A stretch of DNA of 40,977 bases from Nitrosarchaeum sp. (GTDB lineage Archaea > Thermoproteota > Nitrososphaeria > Nitrososphaerales > Nitrosopumilaceae). The position numbers and the translations under genes are program-made. Positions 6,400-33,820 of the stretch are shown one piece after another. The stretch's first letter is position 1. The number at the start of each line of letters is the position of its first letter. Under the pieces are notes generated by a model, which saw only the letters and a list, made by a program, of their open reading frames with translations, was not told the DNA's origin and searched no databases. The stretch covers positions 1 through 40,977 of the forward strand of contig JAHFUM010000012.1 in the NCBI GenBank assembly GCA_023265135.1, given 5' to 3'.

Positions 6400-6825
6400 A
6401 TGAGTGGCAACTATAACCAATTCAATCCAACTGAAATGTTCAAAGATTGGATTCAAAAAAATGGTCGTGCACAAGCTGAATTTATGAAAAACTTTGGTTC
6501 CTTGATGGCAAATCAGAACACTCAGACATTCAATCCTTTAGAAACCCTAAAAGAAGTATCTGATAGTACAAGAAACACTCAATCTGATTTAATGAAGAAT
6601 GTATCTTCAATGCAAAGTAAAAGCATGGAAACAATGTTTCAGATTGGTCAAATGCTCCCATCCTTTGTAAATTGGGGTGCTTACAAAACAACTGTCAGTA
6701 GTAATGGCAGAATTTCGATTCCAGAGGCAGAACGTAATGCACTTGGATTAGGAGAAGGCGACTTGGTTCAAGTCATAGTCCTTCCAATAGCAAAAAAATC
6801 AAAAAATAAGGAGGTGAAACAATGA
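6400..6825 (+). CDS. Phasin-like protein with C-terminal AbrB domain (PhaR-like)
   Basis: A 141-residue protein in two parts. Residues 1-90 are amphipathic and helical (Met/Gln/Asn/Phe-rich, MFKDWIQKNGRAQAEFMKNF), resembling phasins that coat PHA granules. Residues about 95-130 (YKTTVSSNGRISIPEAERNA, then GLGEGDLVQVIVLP) are an AbrB/SpoVT swapped-hairpin DNA-binding domain. Haloarchaeal PHA operons contain an AbrB-type repressor (PhaR) next to the phasin PhaP, so this is probably a granule-associated autoregulator. It overlaps the next gene by 4 nt (ATGA). Function is inferred from domain pairing and context. Confidence 0.8.
   Translation: MSGNYNQFNPTEMFKDWIQKNGRAQAEFMKNFGSLMANQNTQTFNPLETLKEVSDSTRNTQSDLMKNVSSMQSKSMETMFQIGQMLPSFVNWGAYKTTVSSNGRISIPEAERNALGLGEGDLVQVIVLPIAKKSKNKEVKQ
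6808..6817 (+). promoter_or_regulatory. Strong Shine-Dalgarno inside an operon
   Basis: AAGGAGGTGA lies 4 nt before the ATG at 6822. It is nearly fully complementary to the 16S 3' end. Its presence on the second cistron, in contrast to the leaderless first cistron, supports the chosen start and the operon. Confidence 0.75.
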
Positions 6826-7247
6826 GTAAAAACGAACAAACACCAGGAACTAAAGATATGTTTTCAGTTTATCAGGAAAACGTAGACAAACTATTCTCCG
6901 GTATTAGACATTCAGTACCACAGTATCATCAGTCAATTACCAATGTTCAGCAAGAATTCCTACAAGCATATGAAAATATTGTTGATTCTACAATCACATT
7001 ACAAAAAGAATATGCAAAGAAAGCAGGTATTGCAACAAACATTCCACAAGCAACACTAAAAGTAATTCATGATACAACTGAAGAATTTGTCAAAGTATCT
7101 TCTATACAGAATCAAATTACACTTGCAACAATTGATGCAACACAACAAAACATCAAAACATTCAATGATAATGCAAAGTCATTTGCTGATCTAAATAGAA
7201 ATATTCTACAGTCCTGGATAACCGCAGTCACCACAAAGAACAACTAG
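6822..7247 (+). CDS. Phasin family protein (PhaP-like)
   Basis: A 141-residue, all-helical, Gln/Thr/Asn-rich protein without Cys or membrane segments. The pattern (DMFSVYQENVDKLFSGIRHS, repeated FLQAYENIVDS and ATIDATQQNIKTFNDNAKS helices) is typical of phasins, amphipathic proteins that cover the surface of PHA granules and control their size and number. It overlaps the AbrB-phasin gene by 4 nt and uses the strong ribosome site at 6808. It converges with phaC, whose stop lies only about 20 nt away. Sequence similarity among phasins is low, so context carries much of the call. Confidence 0.75.
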   Translation: MSKNEQTPGTKDMFSVYQENVDKLFSGIRHSVPQYHQSITNVQQEFLQAYENIVDSTITLQKEYAKKAGIATNIPQATLKVIHDTTEEFVKVSSIQNQITLATIDATQQNIKTFNDNAKSFADLNRNILQSWITAVTTKNN

Positions 7248-7266: not shown

Positions 7267-8331
7267 TTATGATCTTTCTGCAAGCCACTTTCCTAGTTCT
7301 GGAAGTACCTTGGTTTGGGATAATGAACTAGCAATCATGCCTACATGACCTGTTGGATACATCTTTAATGTTTTATCTTCACTTCCAACTGCATAATGAA
7401 GAGGCATACTGCACTCTGGTGATACCAGATGGTCTCCAACTGCAACTTGTGTGAATATTGGCATGTCTATTTTCTTCAAATCTATGTGGCTACCACCAAC
7501 ATACATTTTGTTTTGAATTAACAGGTTGTCTTGATAGATGTCTTTAATCCATTGTCTGAAAAGTGCTCCTGGAATTGGCGGTGTATCTCCAAGCCATTTT
7601 TCAACTCTTAGGAAACTATCTACGAATTTCTTATTCTCAATGTTTTTGAAAAAATTCACGTATTTTTCAATTCCCTGCTCAAATGGTTTTAGAACTGAAA
7701 AGCAATAATACATAAACTCAGGAGGCATGTTTCCTATGATCTCTACCATCTTATCTACATCCATGTGTTTGGCTAGATTGCTAATCACTGTAGTATCTCG
7801 CCATCCGTCAATTACAGGTGCTGTGGCGATATAGTTTTTCACACTTTCTGGATGCAGTGTAGTGTATGCTGTTGCTATTGTAGCTCCAGTACAATATCCT
7901 TGCAACGAAATTTTTTCTGTAGATGATTCATCCTTGATAAATTCTACACTGCTGTCTAAATATCCATTGACATAGTCATCAAAATCTAAATATTTGTCCA
8001 TGCTTGTAGGTGATCCCCAATCTAGCATGTAGACATCAAATCCCTGTAATAGTAAATTTCTAACCCAACTTTTTTCTGGTTGTATATCTAAAATATGATA
8101 TCTGTTAATTAACGCATAAGAAATTAACAATGGTGTTTTGTATTGTTTATCTGTAAGTGGTCTATAATGCAGTAATCTTGTTTTGTCTATTTCCTGTACT
8201 GTGTCATGCGGAGTCACCTCCAGATTAATTTCATCTGGGGCTGAAACAAATTTGGGTGCATCAATAATGTTTTTGCCAAATTTTATCAACTCCTCTATTA
8301 GTTTAGGGTCAAATTTTGTCTCATTTTTCAT
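7267..8331 (-). CDS. phaC: Class III poly(R)-hydroxyalkanoate synthase subunit PhaC
   Basis: A 354-residue catalytic subunit that polymerises (R)-3-hydroxyacyl-CoA into PHA storage granules. The lipase-like box G-Y-C-T-G holds the catalytic Cys147; Asp300 (AVGDHLVSP) and His329 (TGHVGM) complete the triad. These positions nearly coincide with the known class III enzyme of Allochromatium vinosum (Cys149, Asp302, His331), and the length matches. The ATG start lies inside the end of phaE (11-nt overlap), implying coupled translation of the two subunits that form the active complex. The Cys replaces the Ser of ordinary hydrolases. Confidence 0.95.
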   Translation of the reverse strand: MKNETKFDPKLIEELIKFGKNIIDAPKFVSAPDEINLEVTPHDTVQEIDKTRLLHYRPLTDKQYKTPLLISYALINRYHILDIQPEKSWVRNLLLQGFDVYMLDWGSPTSMDKYLDFDDYVNGYLDSSVEFIKDESSTEKISLQGYCTGATIATAYTTLHPESVKNYIATAPVIDGWRDTTVISNLAKHMDVDKMVEIIGNMPPEFMYYCFSVLKPFEQGIEKYVNFFKNIENKKFVDSFLRVEKWLGDTPPIPGALFRQWIKDIYQDNLLIQNKMYVGGSHIDLKKIDMPIFTQVAVGDHLVSPECSMPLHYAVGSEDKTLKMYPTGHVGMIASSLSQTKVLPELGKWLAERS

Positions 8332-8917
8332 TTTTTGTACCTTCTTCAGTTTTTAGTTCTTTTTTCTTTTTCAATTCAATTTCTAATTTTGTCACCCTTT
8401 TTTTAAGAGCATGCATCTCTTTGTATACCTCGTCAATTTCTTCTTTGCTTGGCAAATTCGCTGACTGTAAAATCACATTTGAAATATTGTGCCAGTGTTT
8501 TGTCAGTTCAAGCTCTTTTGAAACCAGCTTTCCGTAATTCACTCCAAATTTTTCTGAATCAAATAATTCTGTAAAATCATTATCAAAAATATCTATCCAT
8601 ATTCTCTTAAATGACTCCATTTGTTCTATGTCATGAGGCACATCTGGTGCTTTCAGATTGACTTTCTTTTGTGCCTCCCCCCAAGTTTCTGATAATTGTT
8701 TATAGTATTCTGTGACAAATTTGTTAAACTCCATTAGACTCTCGTTAACTTCGATTAATTCAGTCGAGATTTTCTTTGCATTTGAAGCAAATGCCCGCAT
8801 AGGTCCCAACGAAGCTAAAGCCTGTGGCTTGCTTGACATTAGATGGATAATATCAGTCCAGAACAAGGATAGGTGTTTGTAATAATCCATTGAATCTTTA
8901 GGAGATTGTGCTTCCAC
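8321..8917 (-). CDS. phaE: Class III PHA synthase subunit PhaE
   Basis: A 198-residue helical protein, the partner required by class III PhaC. Landmarks are the N-terminal WTDIIHLMSSKPQ region, a central 'YKQLSETWGEAQ' helix and a C-terminal Lys/Glu-rich coiled coil (about 165-198). It is shorter than bacterial PhaE (often 300 or more residues) and nearer the archaeal form. Translation starts at GTG (8915-8917). It is the first gene of a phaE-phaC operon and overlaps phaC. It sits only about 50 nt from the divergent roadblock-like gene at 8971, so the two share an intergenic promoter region. Confidence 0.88.
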   Translation of the reverse strand: MEAQSPKDSMDYYKHLSLFWTDIIHLMSSKPQALASLGPMRAFASNAKKISTELIEVNESLMEFNKFVTEYYKQLSETWGEAQKKVNLKAPDVPHDIEQMESFKRIWIDIFDNDFTELFDSEKFGVNYGKLVSKELELTKHWHNISNVILQSANLPSKEEIDEVYKEMHALKKRVTKLEIELKKKKELKTEEGTKNEK

Positions 8918-15644: not shown

Positions 15645-15734
15645 TCATTGTGTGTCTTCTTCTATTTGTACTGGCGCTGCATAGTTTTTTTGAGTTTTAA
15701 AATAATCCATGTACTGTGCCTGATCTTTTATCAT
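15645..15734 (-). CDS. Small ORF, 29 residues (hypothetical)
   Basis: A short ATG frame, MIKDQAQYMDYFKTQKNYAA and an acidic end, immediately before the zinc-ribbon ORF (3-nt gap). In the same frame upstream a Cys-containing stretch (RCTKQTISC) precedes the ATG, back to a stop, without an evident start codon. It could be a leader or a small protein. Evidence is limited to coding-like composition and tight spacing. Confidence 0.3.
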   Translation of the reverse strand: MIKDQAQYMDYFKTQKNYAAPVQIEEDTQ

Positions 15735-15831
15735 ACATGATATTGTTTGTTTAGTACATCTTACATTTTCTCATATGACCCAAAAATAAAGACTACTTAA
15801 GTCCTGATATTTTAGAATCAAGAGTTCAGAA

Positions 15832-18273
15832 TCAGATTTGTCGTATGACTCCTTGATGTATTAGAAATTCAATTCCTTTGAGAAATTCCTCCTCTGAAAT
15901 TTCTCCAGTTGACCACCATTTTGCATTGTTTTTGATCCAAGATGGAATTTGATTACTTGTTGATCCTGAACTTTGTGCAGTTTGTGGTACATCTATTATT
16001 TTTTCTTTGATCAAAAACTGAATTCCAAGTACAAATGAATTATCATCTATTTTGCCATCTGCCCACCATCCAGCATTGTTTTTGACCCAAGATGGGATTT
16101 TGGATGTTACAACATCCTTTGAATTTATTTTACTTATTAGGACTGTTTTTATTTTCATGTCTTTAACGGATTTAATCAGTTCTTTTAATTCGTTGAATTG
16201 ATTTGAATCAATTTCGTTGACGTATGTTCCATTTTTAATAACTGAAAATTCTTGTGGGTGAAGTGTAACTACAGCAAATCCGTATTTTTGATTACTGTAC
16301 TCTATCTGTGATAGTGTCTCCATGTGATCTATTTTTAAAAATAACATTCCTTCAGAATTCAAATTGCCTGTAACTGCAGTTTCTGGAAATTGATAGATCT
16401 CTAGACCTGAAAATTTGTAAGGTGGACTTGATTTATCGATCTCTGAACTAAAATACGTAAATTCTGCTTCTTTGAGCGCTTTGATAGTATCATTGTTGTA
16501 TTGATTCATTGGAGGAATAAACACAGTTGGTTTTTTTAGTAACGTCTCAGAAATTTTTTTATTTGTTTTTTGTAAAAGATCTAACTGTTCATCATAAGTT
16601 GACAGTGTAAAATCTTCGTGTTTCCATCCATGGTTGGCAACTTCGATTTGTTCTTGAGTTTCCAACTCTTTTTTGATATAATCGACTAATTTCTTGTCAT
16701 CACCAAATGAATTCCCAATAATTCCTATGGTAATTGGTGTATTGTCACGCTTGAATGTTTCTAGTATGTTTAACTGAACATCATCTAACCAAAAATCCTG
16801 AATGTCATCTAGTCTAAATGCAACACAATTACATCTGTCTATGAGTTTAGTTGTAATCACATCTTTTTTATGAACTGAAATCTCATTCAAATATAAAATT
16901 ACTTTTTGATTATTATCTGCAATTCTAACCTGAATTTTATTTATTGATTTGATATTTGGCATTCCTGTAATCTGTCCCTTTGAAAGATCAACTGCAATAT
17001 CTTGCCATTTTCCAGAAGTAATAGTTGAAGGGTCAATCTGTACAATATACCAATTAGATTTGGTGTCATCATCTGAAAATGAAAAAGATAGTTCTTTAAG
17101 ATGTGTAGAATTATCTACTTTGACTCTTGCAACTATTGTTTTATCACTCAAGTCAAATGATGAATATTTTGGGCTACGTGAAAAAACTGCTTTTCCATCT
17201 CCTTCTGTTTCTAATCTTAGACTTTGATCCCCGCTAATAAAGTGAAATACGTCATCACTTTGTATTCCCTGAATAGATTGTTTTTTCCATTTGTGACTTG
17301 CTTGAAAGTTCTCAATTATTTCATCGTTGATCTTGACATTGTTGGATTGTTTTAATTGAGTGCTGTTATTTGATGTCTGATTAAGAAATACGTTCATCTG
17401 GATATCTTTCTCATTAAAAATTACTGAATGATTATCCAACTCTGCAGTGTTGTTTCCAACTAACTTTGAGATTGTTATCTTGTACTCTCCAACTTTGATA
17501 TTTGAGAAATGAGCATCTCCGCGAATTAATTTTGACTCTTCTATTTTGTTTTCATTCTCAAACAGAGAAACAAAAAATACTCCGTCCGAATCTGATAGTT
17601 TTTTTGATTCGCTTGTATATACGGAAACTAATGCTGATTCGACATATTTTGGCCATTTTGTTATTACCTTGATTTGTGATGACCCGGAATCTGGTCTGAT
17701 TGTTTCAGGATAAAATACTAACTTATCTCCCAGATGAACCTCTGGTACGTAATAATCCTCCTCATTCACAACTGACGGAATCCAAAATCTCATTGTTTTT
17801 CCCTCCAAGTCTGTATATCCCTGCGAAATATCTCCACTGTTTTTTGTTTTTAATATGACCTTTGCATTCGGAATGGGAGTTTGTCCATCATTATAAAATA
17901 CATTGAATTGAACTCCAGATGAAAATGGAATTGATATGTGTAATTCCTTACTTCTGTCTACTGCAAAAATCTGGTACCCTGAAAACATATCCTCAATGAA
18001 TACTTCCACTTTGTAGTGGTTGTCTCTTGGCAGTTTTACGTCAAAAAATTGTAAATTTGAGTTTCCCTCTAACTCTGAAAGTTTCTCATTTTCTTTAAAG
18101 ATTATAATTTTTGTGTCTGATAGATCTACTCTGTCTCCATTTGGATAATTCAGTGATATCTGAATTTGTTCTGTAGGAGTTTGCGCCAAAGCGGGTAAGT
18201 ATGTGACAGCAAAAAGCACAGATATTGTAAGTAATATGGAATTTTTCATGTTCATTTTTATCTTGTCAGCCAT
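15832..18273 (-). CDS. Large secreted polysaccharide deacetylase-like protein with WW repeats
   Basis: An 813-residue exported protein. A signal peptide lies at the start (hydrophobic ILLTISVLFAVTYLPALA). About 35-300 are beta-rich, Ig- or carnopeptidase-like modules; about 325-475 resemble a carbohydrate-binding or jelly-roll module (KWKKQSIQGIQSDDVFHFIS). About 480-700 form a NodB/DUF2334-like deacetylase domain with FRLDDIQ (metal Asp pair) and NHGWKHED near 546 (metal His). Two C-terminal repeats of IPSWIKNNAKWW plus a helix end the protein, a module frequent in thaumarchaeal surface proteins. The start could also be 18255 or 18249. It is the last gene of the polysaccharide operon. Confidence 0.85.
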   Translation of the reverse strand: MADKIKMNMKNSILLTISVLFAVTYLPALAQTPTEQIQISLNYPNGDRVDLSDTKIIIFKENEKLSELEGNSNLQFFDVKLPRDNHYKVEVFIEDMFSGYQIFAVDRSKELHISIPFSSGVQFNVFYNDGQTPIPNAKVILKTKNSGDISQGYTDLEGKTMRFWIPSVVNEEDYYVPEVHLGDKLVFYPETIRPDSGSSQIKVITKWPKYVESALVSVYTSESKKLSDSDGVFFVSLFENENKIEESKLIRGDAHFSNIKVGEYKITISKLVGNNTAELDNHSVIFNEKDIQMNVFLNQTSNNSTQLKQSNNVKINDEIIENFQASHKWKKQSIQGIQSDDVFHFISGDQSLRLETEGDGKAVFSRSPKYSSFDLSDKTIVARVKVDNSTHLKELSFSFSDDDTKSNWYIVQIDPSTITSGKWQDIAVDLSKGQITGMPNIKSINKIQVRIADNNQKVILYLNEISVHKKDVITTKLIDRCNCVAFRLDDIQDFWLDDVQLNILETFKRDNTPITIGIIGNSFGDDKKLVDYIKKELETQEQIEVANHGWKHEDFTLSTYDEQLDLLQKTNKKISETLLKKPTVFIPPMNQYNNDTIKALKEAEFTYFSSEIDKSSPPYKFSGLEIYQFPETAVTGNLNSEGMLFLKIDHMETLSQIEYSNQKYGFAVVTLHPQEFSVIKNGTYVNEIDSNQFNELKELIKSVKDMKIKTVLISKINSKDVVTSKIPSWVKNNAGWWADGKIDDNSFVLGIQFLIKEKIIDVPQTAQSSGSTSNQIPSWIKNNAKWWSTGEISEEEFLKGIEFLIHQGVIRQI

Positions 18274-19664
18274 TGATTTTTTCTAAATGTGAGTAATGCT
18301 GGGATTACAAGCCAACACAATCCGAATGATGTGAAAATGTTCATGAAAGGTTTGTATTTCCATGTTCTTGATTTTGAATCGCGGAATTTGTAATCAATAC
18401 CATGAGACAATCCTGCCAGTAACGAACCTCCTACAAATGCAAAAGGAACCCAATAATTTTTGAGAATAAATGGTTCGTAAAGCAGTACAATCAATGTGAT
18501 AAATGGAGCAGTAAATGTCGTCATAAACTCAATATAGAATATAGATGAAATTAATGGATTTTTCTGCCAAAAGAATGTGCTTACAAAAAAGTTGGAGCGA
18601 ATAAATCCTTTCTTCCATCTGGTTTGTTGCCTTATGTATCCTCTAAATTTTTCTGGAACATCGGTATATGCAATTGCTGAAGCTACATAGACTGATTTCC
18701 ATTGTGTCAATGACTGTGCAGTTAAAATTCGGTCTTCGGCATCATCATATTTTGCACTATTCTCTAATAGTTGCTGAGAAATTGGTGCCAGGTGTTTTTT
18801 TGCCCATGGTTTGGCTATGACATAAGTGGTAAGATCTCTATCATCGCTATTTTGTGTTTTTGATTTAATCCAATATGGGATGAAATCTTCTATTACTTCA
18901 CGCCTGTATCCGGCTAAACAACCAGAACAACACGTGACATTTCCTAGAACACTTTCCGTGGTCTTGTGAATATTAAATGCATAATCATACCATGCATCCT
19001 GACACTTTGTTAGTATATTTTTTCTAGAATTCCACACCTTTGCATATCCTACTACTGATCCTATTTTGAGATCTCCATTAAACGTCTTCATGAACTCTTC
19101 AATTGCATGATTGTCTACAACACTATCTGAATCGATTAAAACTATGAATTTTCCTTTTGAATGATTAAACCCAGTTGCAACTGCGTGTCTTTTTCCCTCA
19201 TTTGCTTTGTGAATTACTTTAAGGGTTGGATATTTTTTTGCAAGATTATTTAGAATATTTTTTGTATTATCCTTACTACCATCATTAACTGCAATCACTT
19301 CGATATTTCTGTATGTAGATCTGAATATTGATTCGATTACAATGTCTATCATTGATTCTTGATTGTACACTGGAATAATTATCGAAACCAATTCGTTTCC
19401 TGCTTTTCCTATTGCTGGATTTTTGTAAAATATCCATCCTATTATTATGACCAAAAATGCATGAATTGGCATAATTGTAGAATATGCTACAAGCGTATCA
19501 TTTTCAAGCATTCCCTGATATAGGTTGAATCCGATGATAAACGCCAATCCGATAATTACTGTTCCTCTTACAATCCATCCCTTTTTACTAATGTGAATTC
19601 TCCTGTCTAGTGAAATTTTTTGTTCACATACTGGTTTGAAATCATTTTCAAGAACGGTTGCCAA
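18258..19664 (-). CDS. Membrane glycosyltransferase, family 2 (hyaluronan synthase/NodC-like)
   Basis: A 468-residue processive-type GT2. Hydrophobic helices flank the cytosolic domain (about 32-47, 63-80 and three at about 370-460). Catalytic motifs are ordered as in hyaluronan, chitin and cellulose synthases: nucleotide strand SIIIPVYNQ (94-102), NDGS (127-130), metal DSDS (178-181), a Cys/Gly acceptor loop (CCSGCLAGYRRE), the base motif EDRILT (310-315) and QQTRW (346-350). It likely polymerises a nucleotide sugar at the membrane and extrudes the chain. The donor is unknown. It follows the membrane deacetylase gene by 1 nt and its end may overlap the next gene's start. Confidence 0.93.
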   Translation of the reverse strand: MATVLENDFKPVCEQKISLDRRIHISKKGWIVRGTVIIGLAFIIGFNLYQGMLENDTLVAYSTIMPIHAFLVIIIGWIFYKNPAIGKAGNELVSIIIPVYNQESMIDIVIESIFRSTYRNIEVIAVNDGSKDNTKNILNNLAKKYPTLKVIHKANEGKRHAVATGFNHSKGKFIVLIDSDSVVDNHAIEEFMKTFNGDLKIGSVVGYAKVWNSRKNILTKCQDAWYDYAFNIHKTTESVLGNVTCCSGCLAGYRREVIEDFIPYWIKSKTQNSDDRDLTTYVIAKPWAKKHLAPISQQLLENSAKYDDAEDRILTAQSLTQWKSVYVASAIAYTDVPEKFRGYIRQQTRWKKGFIRSNFFVSTFFWQKNPLISSIFYIEFMTTFTAPFITLIVLLYEPFILKNYWVPFAFVGGSLLAGLSHGIDYKFRDSKSRTWKYKPFMNIFTSFGLCWLVIPALLTFRKNQWLTR

Positions 19665-19665
19665 T

Positions 19666-20379
19666 TTAGGAACCTCTCACTGTTAGCTGATTGCCAACTA
19701 CCTCTGATGGACTCTTGAAGACAACATTTTGTTTTTTGATTAAATCTATGGACTCAAAAATAGATTCAATCGAATCTGTGTTATCAAAATTAATTAAAAG
19801 AGGAGTGGTCTTGTCTGCATTGTCAATCTTAGAGTCTTTGCTAATCTCCTGAAGGTTATATTTGATAAATTGTCCATTTTGGTAATAGTTGTACTGTTTG
19901 TCATATGAAAAATCAGCAATTATTCCTGATTTTGTCAGTAAAGAGTAGATGTTTTGGTCAGTGTAGCCATACGGAGCCTTGAAAATTTTGGAATCTAGGT
20001 TTCCTGCTTTGTCTAACAAATATTTTCCATTTTTAATTACATCCAGCTGATTTTGGTAGTCTAACTGGGATTCAAGACTTGTATATCTTATAGTGGAACT
20101 GCCAATATCAAAATTTTTCCCAAACAAATTCACACATTCTGGAAACTCTCGAGCGATTTCCCCTGGAATGAAAATGACTCCTTTCAGATCTTCTTTTTTT
20201 ACTCTTGCTGCAAGGTCATTGCACCATTCTGGAAGATTGTCTGTATTTTTAATTTCAAACGATAAAAGTATGGTATGTGTAACTGGCATATTTGGAATTA
20301 TTAGTGCAGGTGCAACAAGAGATATCCCTGCAATGATTACTAGACTAGTCGAAATGATTCCGATATGAACTAGTTTCAT
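19666..20379 (-). CDS. Membrane-anchored polysaccharide deacetylase-like protein (degenerate)
   Basis: A 237-residue protein with an N-terminal membrane anchor (about 8-30) and an extracellular NodB-like fold. The family order is recognisable: strand ILLSFEIKN where the catalytic TFDDG should be, VIFIPGEIA, IGSSTIRYTSLES where HTxxH metal ligands are expected, and FKAPYGYTDQ matching the RxPYG motif. The metal-binding Asp and both His seem lost, so it is probably inactive, perhaps a substrate-binding or assembly partner. It lies 1 nt from its neighbours on both sides within the operon. Confidence 0.75.
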   Translation of the reverse strand: MKLVHIGIISTSLVIIAGISLVAPALIIPNMPVTHTILLSFEIKNTDNLPEWCNDLAARVKKEDLKGVIFIPGEIAREFPECVNLFGKNFDIGSSTIRYTSLESQLDYQNQLDVIKNGKYLLDKAGNLDSKIFKAPYGYTDQNIYSLLTKSGIIADFSYDKQYNYYQNGQFIKYNLQEISKDSKIDNADKTTPLLINFDNTDSIESIFESIDLIKKQNVVFKSPSEVVGNQLTVRGS

Positions 20380-20380
20380 A

Positions 20381-21298
20381 TTATATTACAATGTTTGTAG
20401 TCGTAATTTCAAATTCTGTGGGCTTCTGTGATTTTTGTGGCGTTCTTTGATTTATGGATGTTCTATACTCTACATCTATTTTTTTTGCAGCTTCAATTAT
20501 GCTGCTACCTATGGATTTTTTTGAAAGATCCAATAACATTTGACTGTCTTTTGGAAGACAGTGACCTCCAATTCCTTCCATTGCTTGTAGAATCTGAATA
20601 TTCCATTTTGTATTGATTGCGTTTCGAAGCTCTTCAAAATTTAGATTGTTATTTTCACAAATTAATTTTAGTTCTTCAGCATATGCAATTTGTACATACC
20701 TGTATGTGTTTTCTGCAATCTTTGTCATTTCAGCAACATCTGCAGATTTTACATAATAGAGTGGTATCCCAAGAATTTTTCCATAGAAGTTTGTTGCTTC
20801 TTTATAACAACATTCCTTGCATGCTCCAACTACGCGTTTTTGGTTGACACCATGTGTGTCTCTTTCAGGTTTGTAATATCTATGTGGAACATGCGCCACA
20901 TGTAATTTATGATTTAAAATTTCGTAAATTTTTTGAGTTGTTCCACGTGGGATTGTGCTATCTATACCTAAAAACGATCCTTTCTTTGATTCTCTCAAAA
21001 TTTTGTATGTAATTTCATATAGACCGTCAAGGAAAGGCTCAGCCATATTATCAGGTCTGTGCGTTGAAATACAGATCAAATAATAATCATAATCTTTGAA
21101 ATCAACCGCGGCATTTTTTATTATGCCTGCTTTTAGAGCTCTCTTAATTGCAGCATCACTAATGTCATAACCATCGACTGAAAGACCTATCTTTGTCATG
21201 TACTCTGCGTTACTATATCCTATTTCCCCTAATCCTATTATTAGAATTCTAGAATTATCTGAACCGAATGCTGAAGTTTTGTGAACGTGTTTATCCAT
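20381..21298 (-). CDS. Nucleotide-sugar dehydrogenase, short form (UDP-glucose/GDP-mannose DH family)
   Basis: A 305-residue NAD-dependent 6-dehydrogenase homologue. The Rossmann nucleotide turn is ILIIGLGEIGYSN; the catalytic Cys sits in EGIGGHCLPKDSQML near residue 260; and the linker helix with AEMTKIAENTYRYVQIAYAEE is typical. Full-length family members have a further C-terminal UDP-binding domain; this protein stops after the central domain (EYRTSINQR), so it may be altered in activity. It presumably makes a sugar acid for the polysaccharide. The ATG at 21298 overlaps the upstream zinc-protein gene; a longer frame to 21409 is rejected for that reason. Confidence 0.85.
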   Translation of the reverse strand: MDKHVHKTSAFGSDNSRILIIGLGEIGYSNAEYMTKIGLSVDGYDISDAAIKRALKAGIIKNAAVDFKDYDYYLICISTHRPDNMAEPFLDGLYEITYKILRESKKGSFLGIDSTIPRGTTQKIYEILNHKLHVAHVPHRYYKPERDTHGVNQKRVVGACKECCYKEATNFYGKILGIPLYYVKSADVAEMTKIAENTYRYVQIAYAEELKLICENNNLNFEELRNAINTKWNIQILQAMEGIGGHCLPKDSQMLLDLSKKSIGSSIIEAAKKIDVEYRTSINQRTPQKSQKPTEFEITTTNIVI

Positions 21299-21554
21299 TT
21301 TTAAGTCCCTCAAATTCATTCCAACAAGAATCATGGAACCAGTTGGTATCAAAAAGTATAGTTCCTTCTTGAATTTCCATTTGTTCTTTACAAGAAAAAC
21401 ATGATGCAATTCGATTATTTGTTACGTTTGTTTTTATGTTTGTAGAATTATCTGTTGAATATTTGTGATATGCTCCTTGGATTAAATCATTTTTTTTAGA
21501 CAAAGATACATTTACCGAATCAGTATTTTTTATAATATTAGACATTTGTTGCAT
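21291..21554 (-). CDS. Small zinc-binding protein, first gene of polysaccharide operon
   Basis: An 87-residue protein. The N-terminal half is polar; the C-terminal half has C-F-S-C, 18 residues, then W-F-H-D-S-C, the same layout as the 43-residue protein at 2869. A ribosome site GGAGGT (21561-21566 on the complement) precedes the ATG by 6 nt. Its end overlaps the dehydrogenase ATG, implying coupling. It may be a regulator of the operon or an assembly factor; neither is shown by sequence. Confidence 0.65.
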   Translation of the reverse strand: MQQMSNIIKNTDSVNVSLSKKNDLIQGAYHKYSTDNSTNIKTNVTNNRIASCFSCKEQMEIQEGTILFDTNWFHDSCWNEFEGLKNG

Positions 21555-21818
21555 AGAAAAACCTCCATATTTTTGTATATAACAAAGACGAATTATTCTT
21601 ACTGATGTTTAATACGTAATTCATAAATAGAATGAATTATTTGTTGATATTATCTGTGTGTGAGAATCAATTGAACAACATTTTTTATTTTATGATCAAA
21701 AAATAAAATTCCATTGCATTTGAGTCATTTCAAATTTTTCAATTCATAAATTTAAAAATATTTGCAAGTATTGTGTAATATTTTAGAACACCATTTTAAA
21801 AAAATCCATTTATGATAT

Positions 21819-21840
21819 AATGTGTTACAAAATAGATCGC
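21819..21840 (+). promoter_or_regulatory. 22-nt TGTTACA/GATCGC element, copy 1
   Basis: AATGTGTTACAAAA, one variable base region, AGATCGC. It matches 40429-40450 at 21 of 22 positions. It lies about 265 nt upstream of the polysaccharide operon start. Here only one palindrome half is present. A shared operator is inferred. Confidence 0.5.
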
Positions 21841-21937
21841 TAATTTTTTTAAATAACACATTTTTTCTTTAATGAATTTGTGTTTGTTAAATATAATCAA
21901 AATTTGTTAGTTGAAATAAAATGTTACATACAATATC

Positions 21938-22001
21938 TGTGAGATTGATGCTGCTGGGAGTTTGTCAATTCCAAGATAACCCAGGATCAACAAAACTCAC
22001 A
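21938..22001 (+). ncRNA. Possible structured leader or small RNA
   Basis: Alternative, mutually exclusive stems can form: CTGGG (21954-21958) with CCCAG (21980-21984); GAGTTTGT (21958-21965) with ACAAAACTC (21990-21998) with one bulge; and TGTGAG (21938-21943) with CTCACA (21996-22001). A TTTTATTTT run follows at about 22011. It is GC-richer than its surroundings. It could be an attenuator for the ORF at 22038 or a small RNA. Evidence is base pairing only. Confidence 0.25.
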
Positions 22002-22037
22002 ATGATCTGATTTTATTTTCATAAATTCTACAAATCC

Positions 22038-22202
22038 ATGCGAGAAATTATCATCAAACTAAATACTCTGGACTATCTTGACTTTCAGAAGATAGCCAAC
22101 GCGTCAAGCCTTACGGCAGAACAAAAAATACGCGAAATTATACAATATTATCTGATAATTGAGCGAAATCGCAAGAAATTCACACAAAAACTACTAGTAT
22201 AG
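22038..22202 (+). CDS. Ribbon-helix-helix-like small protein, 54 residues
   Basis: The frame starts MREIIIKLNTLDYLDFQKIA and continues with SSLTAEQKIREIIQYYL, a strand-helix-helix pattern that closely resembles CopG/Arc ribbon-helix-helix repressors (strand R-x-I-x-I-x-L, helix with D-Y-x-x-x-x-K-I-A, second helix starting after a short turn). The tail is basic. Dimeric RHH proteins bind operators as antiparallel ribbons. It sits in the gene-poor region between the TGTTACA element and a C2H2 zinc-finger ORF, so it could regulate the divergent polysaccharide operon (inference). Confidence 0.6.
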   Translation: MREIIIKLNTLDYLDFQKIANASSLTAEQKIREIIQYYLIIERNRKKFTQKLLV

Positions 22203-22359
22203 TGCCTGAATTCTGATGTTTGTGTCATTTGCTGTTATCTCTCTGGCATGATTTTCAGACCATCATTATTTCCTTGCAGAACGGTCTTTTTGAATGAGTG
22301 CAAGTAATGGTACCTCATCTTGACATGTCCTTTTGTGTTACGCCCTAAAATGTTACAAA

Positions 22360-22482
22360 TCATGACCATCCATCTACTTTGGATTCTCTTTTCTTGCCCC
22401 ACCTGTGCTCTATTTGCAAGTGATCCTCTAATTTTCTGGGAGATTCAAGTACCGTGTTGCAGATAAGACATCGATAAGACAT
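22360..22482 (-). CDS. C2H2 zinc-finger small protein, 40 residues
   Basis: An ATG frame of 40 codons beginning MSYRCLICNTVLESPRKLED and continuing HLQIEHRWGKK. The spacing C-x2-C-x12-H-x4-H fits a single classical C2H2 zinc finger, followed by basic residues. Small single-finger proteins of this type are known in thaumarchaea. Nucleic-acid binding is likely but its target is unknown. It is convergent to the RHH-like ORF. Confidence 0.6.
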   Translation of the reverse strand: MSYRCLICNTVLESPRKLEDHLQIEHRWGKKRESKVDGWS

Positions 22483-22681
22483 GGAATCAAAACTAGATTA
22501 ATTTTAGATTAAAGGTATTGGTTATAATGAAAACAAAAGAAATTCTACTCAAGTTGACTCTTAAAATCTCAGTAATCATAAACAAACAAAAATGCGATCT
22601 ATTGCCAGTGTAGCAAAAATATAGAATATGTGATTTCAAATTACTTTGAATAAAATAAACTAATTTAACTTACTTTGATAA

Positions 22682-23149
22682 TTGTATGGTGTGAAAATAA
22701 TTAATGCAATTCCTGGGTTTGGTCCTCAACTAACAGAGCAGCAGATAAATGAATTTCTCACAAAAAACCTGAATCTGCAATTGGGCACTATAGATGAAAA
22801 AGGAGAACCAAACATCACTCCTGTTTGGTTTGACCACAAAAATGGAAAACTTTACATCGCAACTCCAAAAAAATCAAAAAAAGCTCAAAACGCTTTACGG
22901 GGAGATACAATTTATTTCTCAATTGATGATGAAACTTTTCCATACAAGGGTGTAAAAGGTAAGGGAAATGTAAAACTCGTAGACGATTTTGATGCAAAGA
23001 TTGCTATTGCAGAAAAAATTATAATCAAATACATGGGAAGTTTGGAAAACGATATTGGAAAATTCATTATAGGACAAATTAAGGAAGGTACTCAAGCGAT
23101 TCTGGAAATTACGCCAAAATACTATTCTGCGTGGTCATTTCAGGCATAA
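22682..23149 (+). CDS. Pyridoxamine 5'-phosphate oxidase-fold flavoprotein
   Basis: A 155-residue split-barrel protein of the PPOX/FMN-binding superfamily. The typical strands are present: LQLGTIDEKGEPNITPVWFD (about 32-51), KLYIATPKKSKKAQNALRG (the phosphate-contacting segment) and IYFSIDDET..GVKGKGNVKLVDD. Such archaeal proteins bind FMN or F420 and act as uncharacterised reductases or oxidases. The start is TTG at 22682; an in-frame GTG three codons later is also possible. It stands alone, convergent with cysS. Confidence 0.85.
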   Translation: MYGVKIINAIPGFGPQLTEQQINEFLTKNLNLQLGTIDEKGEPNITPVWFDHKNGKLYIATPKKSKKAQNALRGDTIYFSIDDETFPYKGVKGKGNVKLVDDFDAKIAIAEKIIIKYMGSLENDIGKFIIGQIKEGTQAILEITPKYYSAWSFQA

Positions 23150-23253
23150 TTCTGGTCTCTATGGATAGAATGTATCTCTAGTAATCTAGTAAATTAATGA
23201 AATATTTCTTTTATTAGATTTATGCCCTCCTGGGATTTTTGCCACTTGCGAAA

Positions 23254-24648
23254 TTATTGAATATCTGCTTTGATCTTTTCTTTAATCATCCAGATTGTTT
23301 TCCCTTTATGGTCAATTAGATTGATATTCATCTCATTGATTTTGTCTCGAATTTTATCAGCTTCCTGAAATTTCTTTTCTTTTCTTAATTGCTCTCTTGC
23401 TGTGATTAAATTATCTATCTCTTGTTTTTTATCCAAAGTTATCTTTGGAATGACCAATCCTAAGATTTCAAGCATTCTTTCAAATTCTGGAATGATGATT
23501 TTGGCGTCATTTAGGTTCATCTTTTCTTCAGCGGCTAAATAATTTACTTCTTTTACAAGTTTGAAAAATGTCAAAAGTGCCAGGTGTGTGTTAAAGTCAG
23601 ACTCTAATGAATCATCAAACTCTGAGTGTATCTCTTTAACTAGTGATTCGATTTCACTATTTTGTTTTTCACCATTTGCATGAATCAGTTCATAATAACA
23701 TGTCTCTGCTTGGCGCCATTTTATGAGATTCTCTTTTAGTAATTCTTCAGAATAGTCTATTGGTTTTGAATAGTGCCCTGACAAACAAAATAGCCTGATT
23801 ATGTTTGCTCCCCAATTATCCAGGACATGTTTTATTGATTTGATGTTTCCAAGGGATTTTGACATCTTTTCTCCATTGATTGTAACCATTCCAACATGCA
23901 TCCAAATTTTTGCAAATTGCTTTGAGGTAAAAGACTCTGACTGTGCAATTTCATTTTCATGATGAGGAAATATCAAATCCCTGCCGCCGCCATGAATGTC
24001 AAAATTTTCTCCAAGGTATCTTATGCTCATTGCAGAACATTCTATGTGCCATCCTGGTCTACCTTTACCCCATGGGCTATCCCAAAGTGGGGGAACGTCT
24101 GAAAATTTCCATAATGCAAAATCTAGAGGATCTTCTTTTGCTTCATCTACTTCTATTCTTGCCCCTGATTGCAGTTCGTCTATCTTCTTTTTTGATAATT
24201 TACCGTATTGTGGAAACTTTGACACTGAGAAATACACTCCGTTCTTTGAGACATATGCCATATTTTTTTCAATTAACCCTTTGATAAAATTAATAATGTC
24301 GTCTATGTGCTCAGTTGCTTTGGGATATTTTGTTGCACGCTTTACGTTTAGTCTGTCAAAGTCGTCAAAATAATTTTGAATGTACCTTGTACTAATCTGT
24401 TCTGCGGTTGAATTTTCTAATTTTGCACGATTGATTATTTTATCATCCACATCTGTGAAATTTTGAATAAATTCAACACTAATTCCCTTGTTTTCCAAGT
24501 ATTTTCTTAGAACATCAAAAACGATTATCGTTCTTGCATGTCCTATGTGTGACTCATCATAAACTGTAACGCCACACAGGTAGACTCTGACTTTTTTTGA
24601 AACATCTAAGGTTTGTTCAGAATTGCTAAGTGTGTCTTGTAGTTTCAT
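23254..24648 (-). CDS. cysS: Cysteinyl-tRNA synthetase
   Basis: A 464-residue class Ia enzyme that charges tRNA-Cys. HIGH is HIGH at 34-37 and KMSKS at 261-265. Zinc ligands are Cys25, Cys204 and the HHENE region (229-233), which holds the cysteine substrate thiolate. A short DALR-like anticodon domain and the C-terminal helical segment complete the normal architecture. The start overlaps the nadE stop by 4 nt (ATGA on the minus strand), so the two genes are translationally coupled. No missing residue is seen. Confidence 0.97.
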   Translation of the reverse strand: MKLQDTLSNSEQTLDVSKKVRVYLCGVTVYDESHIGHARTIIVFDVLRKYLENKGISVEFIQNFTDVDDKIINRAKLENSTAEQISTRYIQNYFDDFDRLNVKRATKYPKATEHIDDIINFIKGLIEKNMAYVSKNGVYFSVSKFPQYGKLSKKKIDELQSGARIEVDEAKEDPLDFALWKFSDVPPLWDSPWGKGRPGWHIECSAMSIRYLGENFDIHGGGRDLIFPHHENEIAQSESFTSKQFAKIWMHVGMVTINGEKMSKSLGNIKSIKHVLDNWGANIIRLFCLSGHYSKPIDYSEELLKENLIKWRQAETCYYELIHANGEKQNSEIESLVKEIHSEFDDSLESDFNTHLALLTFFKLVKEVNYLAAEEKMNLNDAKIIIPEFERMLEILGLVIPKITLDKKQEIDNLITAREQLRKEKKFQEADKIRDKINEMNINLIDHKGKTIWMIKEKIKADIQ

Positions 24649-28859: not shown

Positions 28860-29507
28860 CTATATCACTAAGAAATCGACTTCATACACTGGATAATCTT
28901 GTCTTAATCCTGTTTCAAGTTTTTTCACTTCGGTGAATTTGTGTTGGCTGGATTTTTTAATTATCTGATAAAAGTCATTTCCTATCACCATTCCGTTTGG
29001 TTTTGCTGTACGGTTAATTTTTGAGCAGAGGTTTACAGTTGAACCAAATATGTCTTCACAACAGGACGTTTTGCAATCTGCAATCATTAATGGTCCATAA
29101 TCAACACTTACTCTATATTGAATTTTGGGTAGGTCTCTTTTTGCAAATATCTTGTTAATCATTTCTAATGACTCTAGCATTTTTCTCCCACAAGTGACTG
29201 GAATTGAGAAATCCATATCTTTTGATAATTTTGGAAAGTAAAACAAGATGCTGTCTCCTATGTTTTTTACAACCTTTGCTCCGTTTGCCTCTGCGATATA
29301 GCCCAAGGCGTTGAGAAATACTGTATAATACTCACATGCTTGTGCTTGTGATAATTTTGCTGTAATTTGTGTAGAGTTTACAATGTCAACTATTCCAACA
29401 CAATAACAATGGTCTATTTCTTTAAATGATATCATCTGATCTTTTAAAAATACTTCTTCCTTTGAGCCAAATATCACATCACTTTTAATTTTAGGCCCTA
29501 GCATCAT
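28860..29507 (-). CDS. Class III nucleotide cyclase-like protein (short)
   Basis: A 215-residue protein that is a single class III cyclase catalytic domain. Metal Asp residues are Asp41 (GIVDIVNST) and Asp85 (KNIGDSILF). The strand VSVDYGPLMIADC and the segment DIFGSTVNLCSKINRTA follow. The transition-state Asn is present (VN) but the Arg four residues on is replaced by Lys (SK), so activity may be changed. It could make cAMP or cGMP as a dimer in the cytoplasm. No receptor domain is attached. It is convergent with ahcY. Confidence 0.85.
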   Translation of the reverse strand: MMLGPKIKSDVIFGSKEEVFLKDQMISFKEIDHCYCVGIVDIVNSTQITAKLSQAQACEYYTVFLNALGYIAEANGAKVVKNIGDSILFYFPKLSKDMDFSIPVTCGRKMLESLEMINKIFAKRDLPKIQYRVSVDYGPLMIADCKTSCCEDIFGSTVNLCSKINRTAKPNGMVIGNDFYQIIKKSSQHKFTEVKKLETGLRQDYPVYEVDFLVI

Positions 29508-32410: not shown

Positions 32411-33820
32411 TTGGCACAAACTCAGGACAATCTTGTCGCAAAACTTGATCAAATTGCAGAGATACTGGGAATACTAAATGAGACTCATAGAGGAAGGGAG
32501 TGGCTTTTAGAGCAGTTAAAAAAACACAAAATTTCAATAAAGACTCATGGCAACTCGTATGACATCTTAAAAGAATGTCCTGAAGATTTTACCTATCAGA
32601 TGCTCAGATCACTTCGCGGTGAGGACATTGAGGGCTTTGAGGATATCAAAACTTTAACAAAGACATTTCACTGGTTTTTTATTGATATTGTTGCTGCATC
32701 AAACCCAAAAATCCCTACAAAAAACCAGGTAAAAAAAATCATTGTCCTAAATGAACTGATTTCGCGAACTGAGACATTTCAAAAAAGAATTCCAGAATCT
32801 GTGGTAATTCTGCCAACCGGTGACGGAATGGCAATAGGATTTTCAGACAGTCCTGAAAAGCCAATTAGATTGTCAATGGAGCTGCACAGCGGAATTAATC
32901 GATACAACAAGTCGCAAAAAGGTGATGATATTTTACTGGTACGAATTGGCATAGATATGGGTCCAGTCTATGTAATCAAAGACCTAAACAACATGGATAA
33001 TGTCTGGGGACCAGGAATTATCCTTACAAGAAGAGTGATGGATTTGGCAGGGGATATGAACATCTTTGCATCTGCAAGAATTGCTGATGAAGTGCGAAAG
33101 CTTTCAGATGAATACAAAAAGATAGTTCATCCAATAGGGGATTACAGCATAAAGCACGGTGAGGAATTGCAGATTTTTAATATCTACGGAGAAGGCTTTG
33201 GAAACAAGATTGCACCAAAGATAAAAAAAGTCAAAAAACTATCTTTAGATGAATCTCTAAAGTCATCAAATAATTTCAAGTTTGAAAAAGTAGAGATGCT
33301 GTTAGATGTATTGGATGTAAAGACAATGCTTACGCGTCACACCTGGATCTGGACCTTGTTAAATATCTCAAAGGAGGCAAAGAACCAAATTTTTTATTCA
33401 GTTGATGGAGATACTCCTAAAGAATTTGCTGACATGAATGTAAATATCTCTGATGATAGGGGAAGGCAAATTGAGATTATGAGCTTAAATGTTAACAAGC
33501 CATACCACAAGGAATTTTTTGCAAAGATTTCTCCAGTGGAGCCAAAAAAATTAAAGACACTCAAACTACGATATGACTGGGAGGAACCTGAAAAGAACTT
33601 TTTATTTCGAGTTCCATCTGATTGCAAAGAGATGACTTACATGTTGACCGTTCCAAAAGAGTATGAGCCGCAAATTAAAATTTTAAAAGTGGATTTAGAG
33701 ACAGGATTGAAAATTCATGCAACTCCTAGCCCGACGATTAAAAGATTTGATGATAAAACAATCATTAGCTGGACCAAAAATGGTCTGAAGGCATTTGATG
33801 CATATCAGATATTTTGGTAG
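32411..33820 (+). CDS. Class III cyclase-like protein with C-terminal unknown domain
   Basis: A 469-residue protein with a TTG start. Residues about 85-255 form a class III nucleotide cyclase domain: metal Asp92 (FFIDIVAA), Asp138 in LPTGDGMAIGF, and VRIGIDMGPVYVIKD. At the helix that normally reads VNxAARL it has IILTRRVMDLA: the Arg is kept (Arg208) but the Asn is Ile204. Before it is a helical region (about 10-55); after it (about 280-469) is a beta-rich domain of unknown role. Products may be nonstandard or absent. No membrane segment is seen. Confidence 0.75.
   Translation: MAQTQDNLVAKLDQIAEILGILNETHRGREWLLEQLKKHKISIKTHGNSYDILKECPEDFTYQMLRSLRGEDIEGFEDIKTLTKTFHWFFIDIVAASNPKIPTKNQVKKIIVLNELISRTETFQKRIPESVVILPTGDGMAIGFSDSPEKPIRLSMELHSGINRYNKSQKGDDILLVRIGIDMGPVYVIKDLNNMDNVWGPGIILTRRVMDLAGDMNIFASARIADEVRKLSDEYKKIVHPIGDYSIKHGEELQIFNIYGEGFGNKIAPKIKKVKKLSLDESLKSSNNFKFEKVEMLLDVLDVKTMLTRHTWIWTLLNISKEAKNQIFYSVDGDTPKEFADMNVNISDDRGRQIEIMSLNVNKPYHKEFFAKISPVEPKKLKTLKLRYDWEEPEKNFLFRVPSDCKEMTYMLTVPKEYEPQIKILKVDLETGLKIHATPSPTIKRFDDKTIISWTKNGLKAFDAYQIFW

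Follow-up and report, generated by a model that had tools for sequence, protein, structure and literature searches.

Whether a compact five-gene operon in the archaeon Nitrosarchaeum sp. (Nitrosopumilaceae) makes a surface polysaccharide, and of what kind, is the question raised by contig JAHFUM010000012.1 (GenBank assembly GCA_023265135.1; host genome G000, 1.8 Mb in 25 contigs, estimated completeness 99.96%). The whole 40,977-nt stretch that was analysed is referred to here as the window. In order, the operon encodes a small zinc protein, a short UDP-sugar dehydrogenase-like protein (UGD), a membrane-anchored inactive polysaccharide-deacetylase homologue (CE4a), a processive-type membrane glycosyltransferase of family 2 (GT2) and a secreted polysaccharide deacetylase (CE4b). 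The gene cluster is a patchily distributed, horizontally transferred accessory operon of ammonia-oxidising archaea (AOA) and, judged from its gene content, very probably encodes a polysaccharide or oligosaccharide pathway. Two of its parts, the short UGD and the dead CE4a, are unusual and lacking in known systems of this kind.

All five open reading frames (ORFs) are present on the minus strand at 21554-15832 in the start-corrected ORF listing, with spacings between the zinc, UGD, CE4a, GT2 and CE4b genes of -8, +1, +1 and -16 nt. The original prediction of a five-gene order with 1-nt gaps or overlaps is therefore borne out, and ORFs, spacings and Pfam domain calls agree. The 342-aa UGD ORF of the mechanical list has too early a start, at an upstream TTG within the zinc gene; the conserved UGD start is the ATG at 21298, which overlaps the zinc gene stop (ATGGATAA). 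The order UGD-CE4a-GT2 is conserved far beyond chance: it is shared by about 20 loci, in which the genes are spaced by -29 to +84 nt. Thus, the check that had been proposed, a search for the same order in other ammonia oxidisers, returned the core repeatedly, and the refuting possibility named beforehand, that the arrangement might be unique to this genome, fails with its recurrence in three families.

The GT2 matches Glycos_transf_2 (PF00535, E=8e-34) and chitin synthase (PF03142, E=1e-14) and carries the DxD, (T/G)ED-type and QxxRW signatures of a processive synthase as DSDS (residues 178-181), DDxED (307-311) and QQTRW (346-350). D178-D180, E310-D311 and QQTRW are invariant in all complete close homologues (21-27 aligned), and hydropathy places hydrophobic segments at both ends of the protein (30-48, 58-76, 377-395 and 440-458). 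A profile built from 21 homologues retrieved hyaluronan synthase (HAS) first among PDB structures (93.8 bits) and chondroitin synthase next; chitin synthases scored 46 bits. This ranking upholds the earlier description of a hyaluronan-synthase-like enzyme as far as its best solved relative is concerned. The single sequence has low overall similarity to HAS, split over two stretches of 46 and 25 bits, and about 24% identity to the NodC/HAS superfamily along 88% of the protein. The best NCBIfam model is PgaC/IcaA (TIGR03937; 145.6 bits, E=2e-42, under the cut-off of 422); the NodC model scores lower (TIGR04242; 103 bits, E=2e-29, under the cut-off of 550). A different and apparently commoner pair in the family joins a GT2 of approximately 610-645 aa to a neighbouring CE4 domain, single or double, of 610-845 aa (G034 C3:254072-256532, G058 C1:730452-733703, G080 C1:95041-98290 and G102 C1:497780-500288); this pair is absent from the present genome and present in three same-genus genomes, and the Nitrosarchaeum-type G102 has both.

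The UGD retains the central domain (UDPG_MGDP_dh, PF00984, E=1e-20) and the NAD domain (PF03721, E=7e-8) of its family. By Pfam, the C-terminal UDP-binding domain (PF03720) is absent from the window protein, from its counterpart in locus L034 and from the whole genome, and it is missing in all 22 short UGDs aligned; homologues measure 282-316 aa, or 344-348 aa when fused to the zinc domain. Nevertheless, the catalytic residues T115, E145, K193, N197, C247, K250 and D251 are kept in the window protein, and Thr115, Glu145, Lys193, Asn197, Cys247 and Asp251 are kept across the 22. Short UGDs have, in addition, an invariant CxxCC (C160/C163/C164) and several invariant His residues. The protein scores 140.5 bits against TIGR03026, under the cut-off of 189.8, its best PDB relative is the UDP-ManNAc dehydrogenase 4r16, and it lies nearest to UDP-ManNAc/UDP-GlcNAc dehydrogenases and not to UDP-Glc dehydrogenases. 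A fold search with an AlphaFold model (pLDDT 66, C-terminal third poor) confirmed the family and nothing beyond. The protein is the sole PF00984 member of the genome, and a full-length UGD elsewhere as a source of UDP-glucuronate was rejected, none being encoded in the 25 contigs. Consequently, the earlier label of sugar-nucleotide dehydrogenase stands as to family, but the step from it to UDP-glucuronate and hyaluronan is not secured, the UDP-binding domain being absent in 22/22 homologues.

The zinc protein has no Pfam match. Its gene lies upstream of UGD in nine loci of Nitrosopumilaceae (f1), with the same 8-nt overlap in five (the window, L072, L073, L074 and L077); the zinc motif alone was seen upstream of UGD in L041 and L076, and in L034 and L079 the zinc domain and UGD form a single in-frame fusion. 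The possibility that the ORF is a frameshifted UGD N-terminus was rejected on the evidence of separate overlapping zinc ORFs in other genera and of the fusion in two loci.

The genome encodes no Polysacc_deac_1 proteins other than CE4a and CE4b. CE4a has NodB-type similarity (PF01522, E=1e-6), and its family profile matches solved CE4 deacetylases (best E=7e-13). In an alignment of 24 rows, one of them masked, the Asp-Asp of motif 1 and the His-x3-His of motif 2 are lost in every homologue, while APYG is mostly kept. Decay in this genome was rejected since all homologues lack the catalytic motifs; the protein that had been called a degenerate deacetylase is indeed inactive, but as a member of a conserved inactive family. 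Hydropathy indicates a single N-terminal membrane anchor (transmembrane segment 8-26), and the body of the protein is probably outside the cell. A 1070-1075-aa protein of f1 (L067, L064, L066, L069 and similar), mostly of genus g6, contains a region that is weakly CE4a-like (E ~1e-4).

CE4b (PF01522, E=1e-14) has a signal segment at residues 12-30 by hydropathy and an intact active site, in which D489, D490, H548 and H672 are invariant in eight homologues; H552 is present in the window protein and is Asn in L034 and L079. Its domain at residues 319-470 shares 40-42% identity with proteins of L072, L074 and L077 (blastp, E ~1e-25 to 1e-28), and the CE4b of one relative carries chitobiase C-terminal domains. 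The tryptophan-rich repeats foreseen on this protein (IPSWVKNNAGWW) are present but not specific to the operon: with 34 matches across the genome, and no Pfam match, they form a general surface module.

The first position of the core, slot 1, is exchangeable. It is occupied by the short UGD in most loci, by a full-length dehydrogenase nearest to TviB in L036, and by UDP-sulfoquinovose synthase in L046 and L047 (625.7 and 577.3 bits against NF041015, above the cut-off of 575), where the proteins match the SQD1 structure with E=3e-123 and 3e-107, respectively. The genome that carries L047 (G194) has no UGD-family protein at all. The GT2s of L046 and L047, which belong to different families, pair in the tree with 100/100 support, a grouping that hints at a correspondence between GT2 type and sugar nucleotide (n=2). 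L036 is on a contig of a Chloroflexi-labelled genome that carries glmS, the TviB-like dehydrogenase, CE4a and GT2 consecutively, which reflects either transfer involving bacteria or the mis-binning of an archaeal contig.

Other parts of the cluster are also variable. CE4b directly follows GT2 in the window, L034, L076, L078 and L079, and elsewhere lies behind a small ORF (L145), 214 nt downstream (L039) or behind extra genes (genus g8); several CE4 genes occur in the clusters of relatives. In g8 an MBOAT acyltransferase (E=8e-34) and a DltD-like protein come directly after GT2, the latter with pentapeptide repeats and the domain shared with CE4b residues 319-470. The glmS gene is present in the Nitrosarchaeum genome and, in L036 and L044, is a direct neighbour of the core. 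Clusters of two families also encode a secreted protein of 528-559 aa (L040 12726-14405; L073 4452-6038), with no Pfam match and the motif 'GMW(F/Y)PPHGRPQ(F/Y)GVYDID', which might bind or cleave the polymer as a lectin or lyase.

CE4a is the most specific marker of the system, with a strong match in 13-14 of the 250 genomes of the family and in 21 of the 400 genomes of the order; the other CE4a matches listed in the family are weak, mostly partial and to much larger proteins. Approximately 5% of genomes carry the operon core. Carriers fall into three families, f1, f3 and f8 (L034 being a Nitrosarchaeum metagenome-assembled genome, MAG), and the core is also found in two Bathyarchaeota MAGs and one Chloroflexi MAG, labels that may be wrong. 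In the GT2 tree f1 is not kept together (approximately unbiased test, p=1.3e-6, weakened by the long branch L048 in the set), a topology that would fit transfer between families. The divergence of UGD, CE4a and GT2 is correlated (r=0.63-0.78, with at most 1/5000 permutations as high). GT2s with 30% identity that are common in another family (L016-L033) were excluded from the system, since the short flanking stretches available encode neither UGD nor CE4a, CE4b or sulfoquinovose synthase.

Ten same-genus genomes (L123-L132) show a precise empty site, at which cysS lies directly next to a GTPase gene, with 0 to approximately 430 bp between the flanks. In blastn comparisons, homology on the left ends at ~15,671-15,695 in nine of the ten and at 15,510 in L130, and on the right it resumes at ~23,250-23,264, up to the cysS stop codon. 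Because the operon is missing at this site, the 7.56 kb can be identified as an accessory island in this species, consisting of the operon, a divergent oxidase-like ORF and approximately 1.1 kb of AT-rich non-coding DNA. The island ends have no convincing direct repeats or tRNA, viral contigs encode no relative of GT2, and plasmids encode distant GT2s only (<60% identity). What had been proposed as a thaumarchaeal surface polysaccharide pathway hence keeps its polysaccharide reading and loses its generality, being an accessory island in a small minority of genomes.

A surface polysaccharide is the best-supported product because a polymerising GT2, external deacetylase-type proteins, a sugar-nucleotide enzyme, glmS neighbours and, in relatives, an O-acylation pair all belong to the cluster, and the resemblance first noted to bacterial synthase-dependent exopolysaccharide systems is supported to the extent of a synthase-type GT2 operon. 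The product is probably a polymer. UGD-type dehydrogenases, TviB and sulfoquinovose synthases (SQD1/Agl3) are makers of acidic sugar nucleotides, and an anionic polymer is proposed because known examples of both kinds of slot-1 enzyme yield uronates or sulfoquinovose. The cytoplasmic slot-1 enzyme, here the short UGD with its zinc partner, would act on a sugar nucleotide, with UDP-GlcNAc or UDP-Glc the likeliest substrate, and oxidise its C6 to give an acidic sugar, which the membrane GT2 would polymerise, alone or with UDP-GlcNAc, while passing the chain through the membrane as hyaluronan and chitin synthases do. The anchored, inactive CE4a may hold or guide the emerging chain, and the secreted CE4b would strip N-acetyl groups, its repeats keeping it on the cell surface. 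The predicted product is an anionic, partly deacetylated amino-sugar polymer, present as capsule or matrix, and this full scheme is, on balance, the favoured account. A broader proposition is offered tentatively: a new archaeal synthase module in which the exchangeable slot 1 might set the acidic sugar (of uronate type via the UDP-domain-less dehydrogenase and zinc partner, or sulfoquinovose), the dedicated dead deacetylase might handle the chain, and the resulting uronate or sulfonate polymers might make some AOA sticky and negatively charged.

Several points weigh against the anionic-polymer scheme. The product is predicted from gene content, and a UDP-sugar may not be the substrate of the short UGD, whose homologues all lack the UDP-binding domain. 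The QxxRW motif is also found in some glycolipid synthases, and AlphaFold models of the GT2 (four sequences, pLDDT 44) were unfit for a fold search. Moreover, correlated divergence could stem from shared transfer of linked genes alone, and the link between GT2 type and slot-1 type is based on just two sulfoquinovose loci.

The alternative that survives best, although unlikely, is a neutral or cationic homopolymer resembling poly-N-acetylglucosamine (PNAG) or chitosan, for which the GT2 would use UDP-GlcNAc and CE4b would deacetylate the chain, the UGD having some other role or being a sensor or structural protein unable to use UDP-sugars. The top rank of PgaC/IcaA among NCBIfam models, the two CE4 proteins flanking GT2, the glmS neighbours of relatives, the chitobiase domains on one CE4b and the loss of the nucleotide-binding domain from UGD would all agree with such a product. 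However, the invariant catalytic residues of the short UGD argue for catalysis, and the swap of slot 1 to UDP-sulfoquinovose synthase or a full-length TviB-like enzyme argues for a role in sugar-nucleotide supply.

A weaker and rather improbable alternative is that the GT2 makes no polymer and supplies a glycolipid or lipid-linked sugar for decoration of the S-layer or N-glycans, as some QxxRW GT2 families do make glycolipids. N-glycosylation pathways exist in AOA (PMC12153357), and in Sulfolobus the UDP-sulfoquinovose synthase Agl3 works in the service of glycoconjugates (PMC4388408). Nevertheless, the GT2 has the full synthase motif set, the two deacetylase-type proteins and the MBOAT/DltD pair of relatives fit a polymer outside the membrane, and no oligosaccharyltransferase or flippase was recognised in the inspected clusters. 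A true hyaluronan, or a chondroitin- or heparosan-like glucuronate polymer, made by a dual-specificity HAS from UDP-glucuronate of the short UGD, is the least probable product despite the HAS structures heading the profile search, the union of UGD and GT2 in one operon as in hasA/hasB of streptococci and the glmS gene of the genome, because the nearest relatives of the UGD are UDP-ManNAc/UDP-GlcNAc dehydrogenases, its UDP-binding domain is missing, and the enzymes that can take its place do not produce UDP-GlcA, while GT2 similarity to HAS is low and split and the PgaC model outscores NodC with both under cut-off.

Coordinates of the operon, its domains and the island that contains it, as window positions
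Feature	Position	Strand	Remarks
Zinc protein	21291..21554	-	87 aa, ORF 1 of operon; CxxC-x18-HxxC; 8-nt overlap with UGD ATGGATAA
Short UDP-sugar dehydrogenase-like protein (UGD)	20381..21298	-	305 aa; NAD and central domains
CE4a, membrane-anchored inactive polysaccharide-deacetylase homologue	19666..20379	-	237 aa
Processive-type membrane GT2	18258..19664	-	468 aa, TTG start
CE4b, secreted polysaccharide deacetylase with signal peptide	15832..18273	-	813 aa
Carbohydrate-binding-like domain of CE4b, residues ~319-470	16864..17319	-	name inferred; blastp
Polysacc_deac_1 catalytic domain of CE4b	16453..16833	-	58.9 bits
Two C-terminal 'WVKNNAGWW' repeats of CE4b	15844..16107	-	general surface-protein module
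Pyridoxamine-5'-phosphate-oxidase-like ORF, 155 aa	22682..23149	+	in island, divergent from operon; family by eye
Accessory island with operon	15695..23253	.	blastn against empty sites L123-L132

Elsewhere in the window, adjacent genes for PhaC- and PhaE-like polyhydroxyalkanoate synthase subunits (7267-8917, minus strand) with phasin-like ORFs near them (6400-7247, plus strand) were recognised by eye, as were adenylate/guanylate-cyclase-like ORFs at 28860-29507 (minus strand) and 32411-33820 (plus strand), the closeness of which is unusual for a small archaeal genome.

The compact, conserved module offers a defined gene set for expression and assay, and within enzyme families that have been studied closely, the UDP-domain-less dehydrogenase and the always-dead deacetylase stand out as exceptions open to experiment. 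Ammonium gathering at the cell surface has been proposed for AOA S-layers. An anionic polymer, if true, would bear on the formation of AOA aggregates and possibly on such gathering, and the exchange to UDP-sulfoquinovose synthase predicts a sulfonated archaeal polymer detectable by mass spectrometry. In the literature searched, the case for AOA surface polysaccharides comes from microscopy and scattered gene lists, with no assigned pathway. No description of this gene set was found there, supplements and Kerou et al. 2016 (N. viennensis) being outside the scope of the search. For soil AOA, earlier work has proposed genes of glycosyltransferase/deacetylase type for extracellular polymeric substances (EPS) as well as an amino-sugar glycocalyx (PMC11559005, PMC11561398). 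The Nitrosocosmicus glycocalyx and N. viennensis EPS clusters treated there resemble the present operon in tying such genes to EPS, but the main-text passages of both papers do not describe this gene set.

Among bacterial systems, class I hyaluronan synthase operons (HasA/HasB) are similar in having one membrane GT2 with HAS-like motifs beside a UGD-family gene and no outer-membrane parts. The archaeal operon differs from them in a UGD without the UDP-binding domain, in two CE4 proteins, one of them dead, in a slot 1 replaceable by UDP-sulfoquinovose synthase and in the distance of its similarity to HAS. With the systems for PNAG and polysaccharide intercellular adhesin (PgaABCD, IcaADBC) it shares a PgaC-like GT2, albeit under cut-off, and an extracellular CE4 deacetylase, but it lacks PgaD/IcaD and IcaC, has a sugar-nucleotide dehydrogenase in addition and includes a membrane-anchored CE4 that is dead. 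The NodBC chitooligosaccharide pair likewise combines a GT2 of the NodC/HAS superfamily with a CE4 protein, whereas the archaeal operon has no acyltransferase NodA, an inactive adjoining CE4 and an extra dehydrogenase. AlgI/DltB-DltD O-acylation modules have their counterpart directly after GT2 in genus g8, absent from the operon of this genome. Finally, the archaeal UGDs have the same NAD and central domains and the catalytic Cys, Lys and Asn of UDP-ManNAc/UDP-GlcNAc 6-dehydrogenases (WecC, Cap5O, TviB), but differ in the absence of the C-terminal nucleotide-binding domain, in a small zinc domain that is separate or fused, and in their conserved CxxCC.

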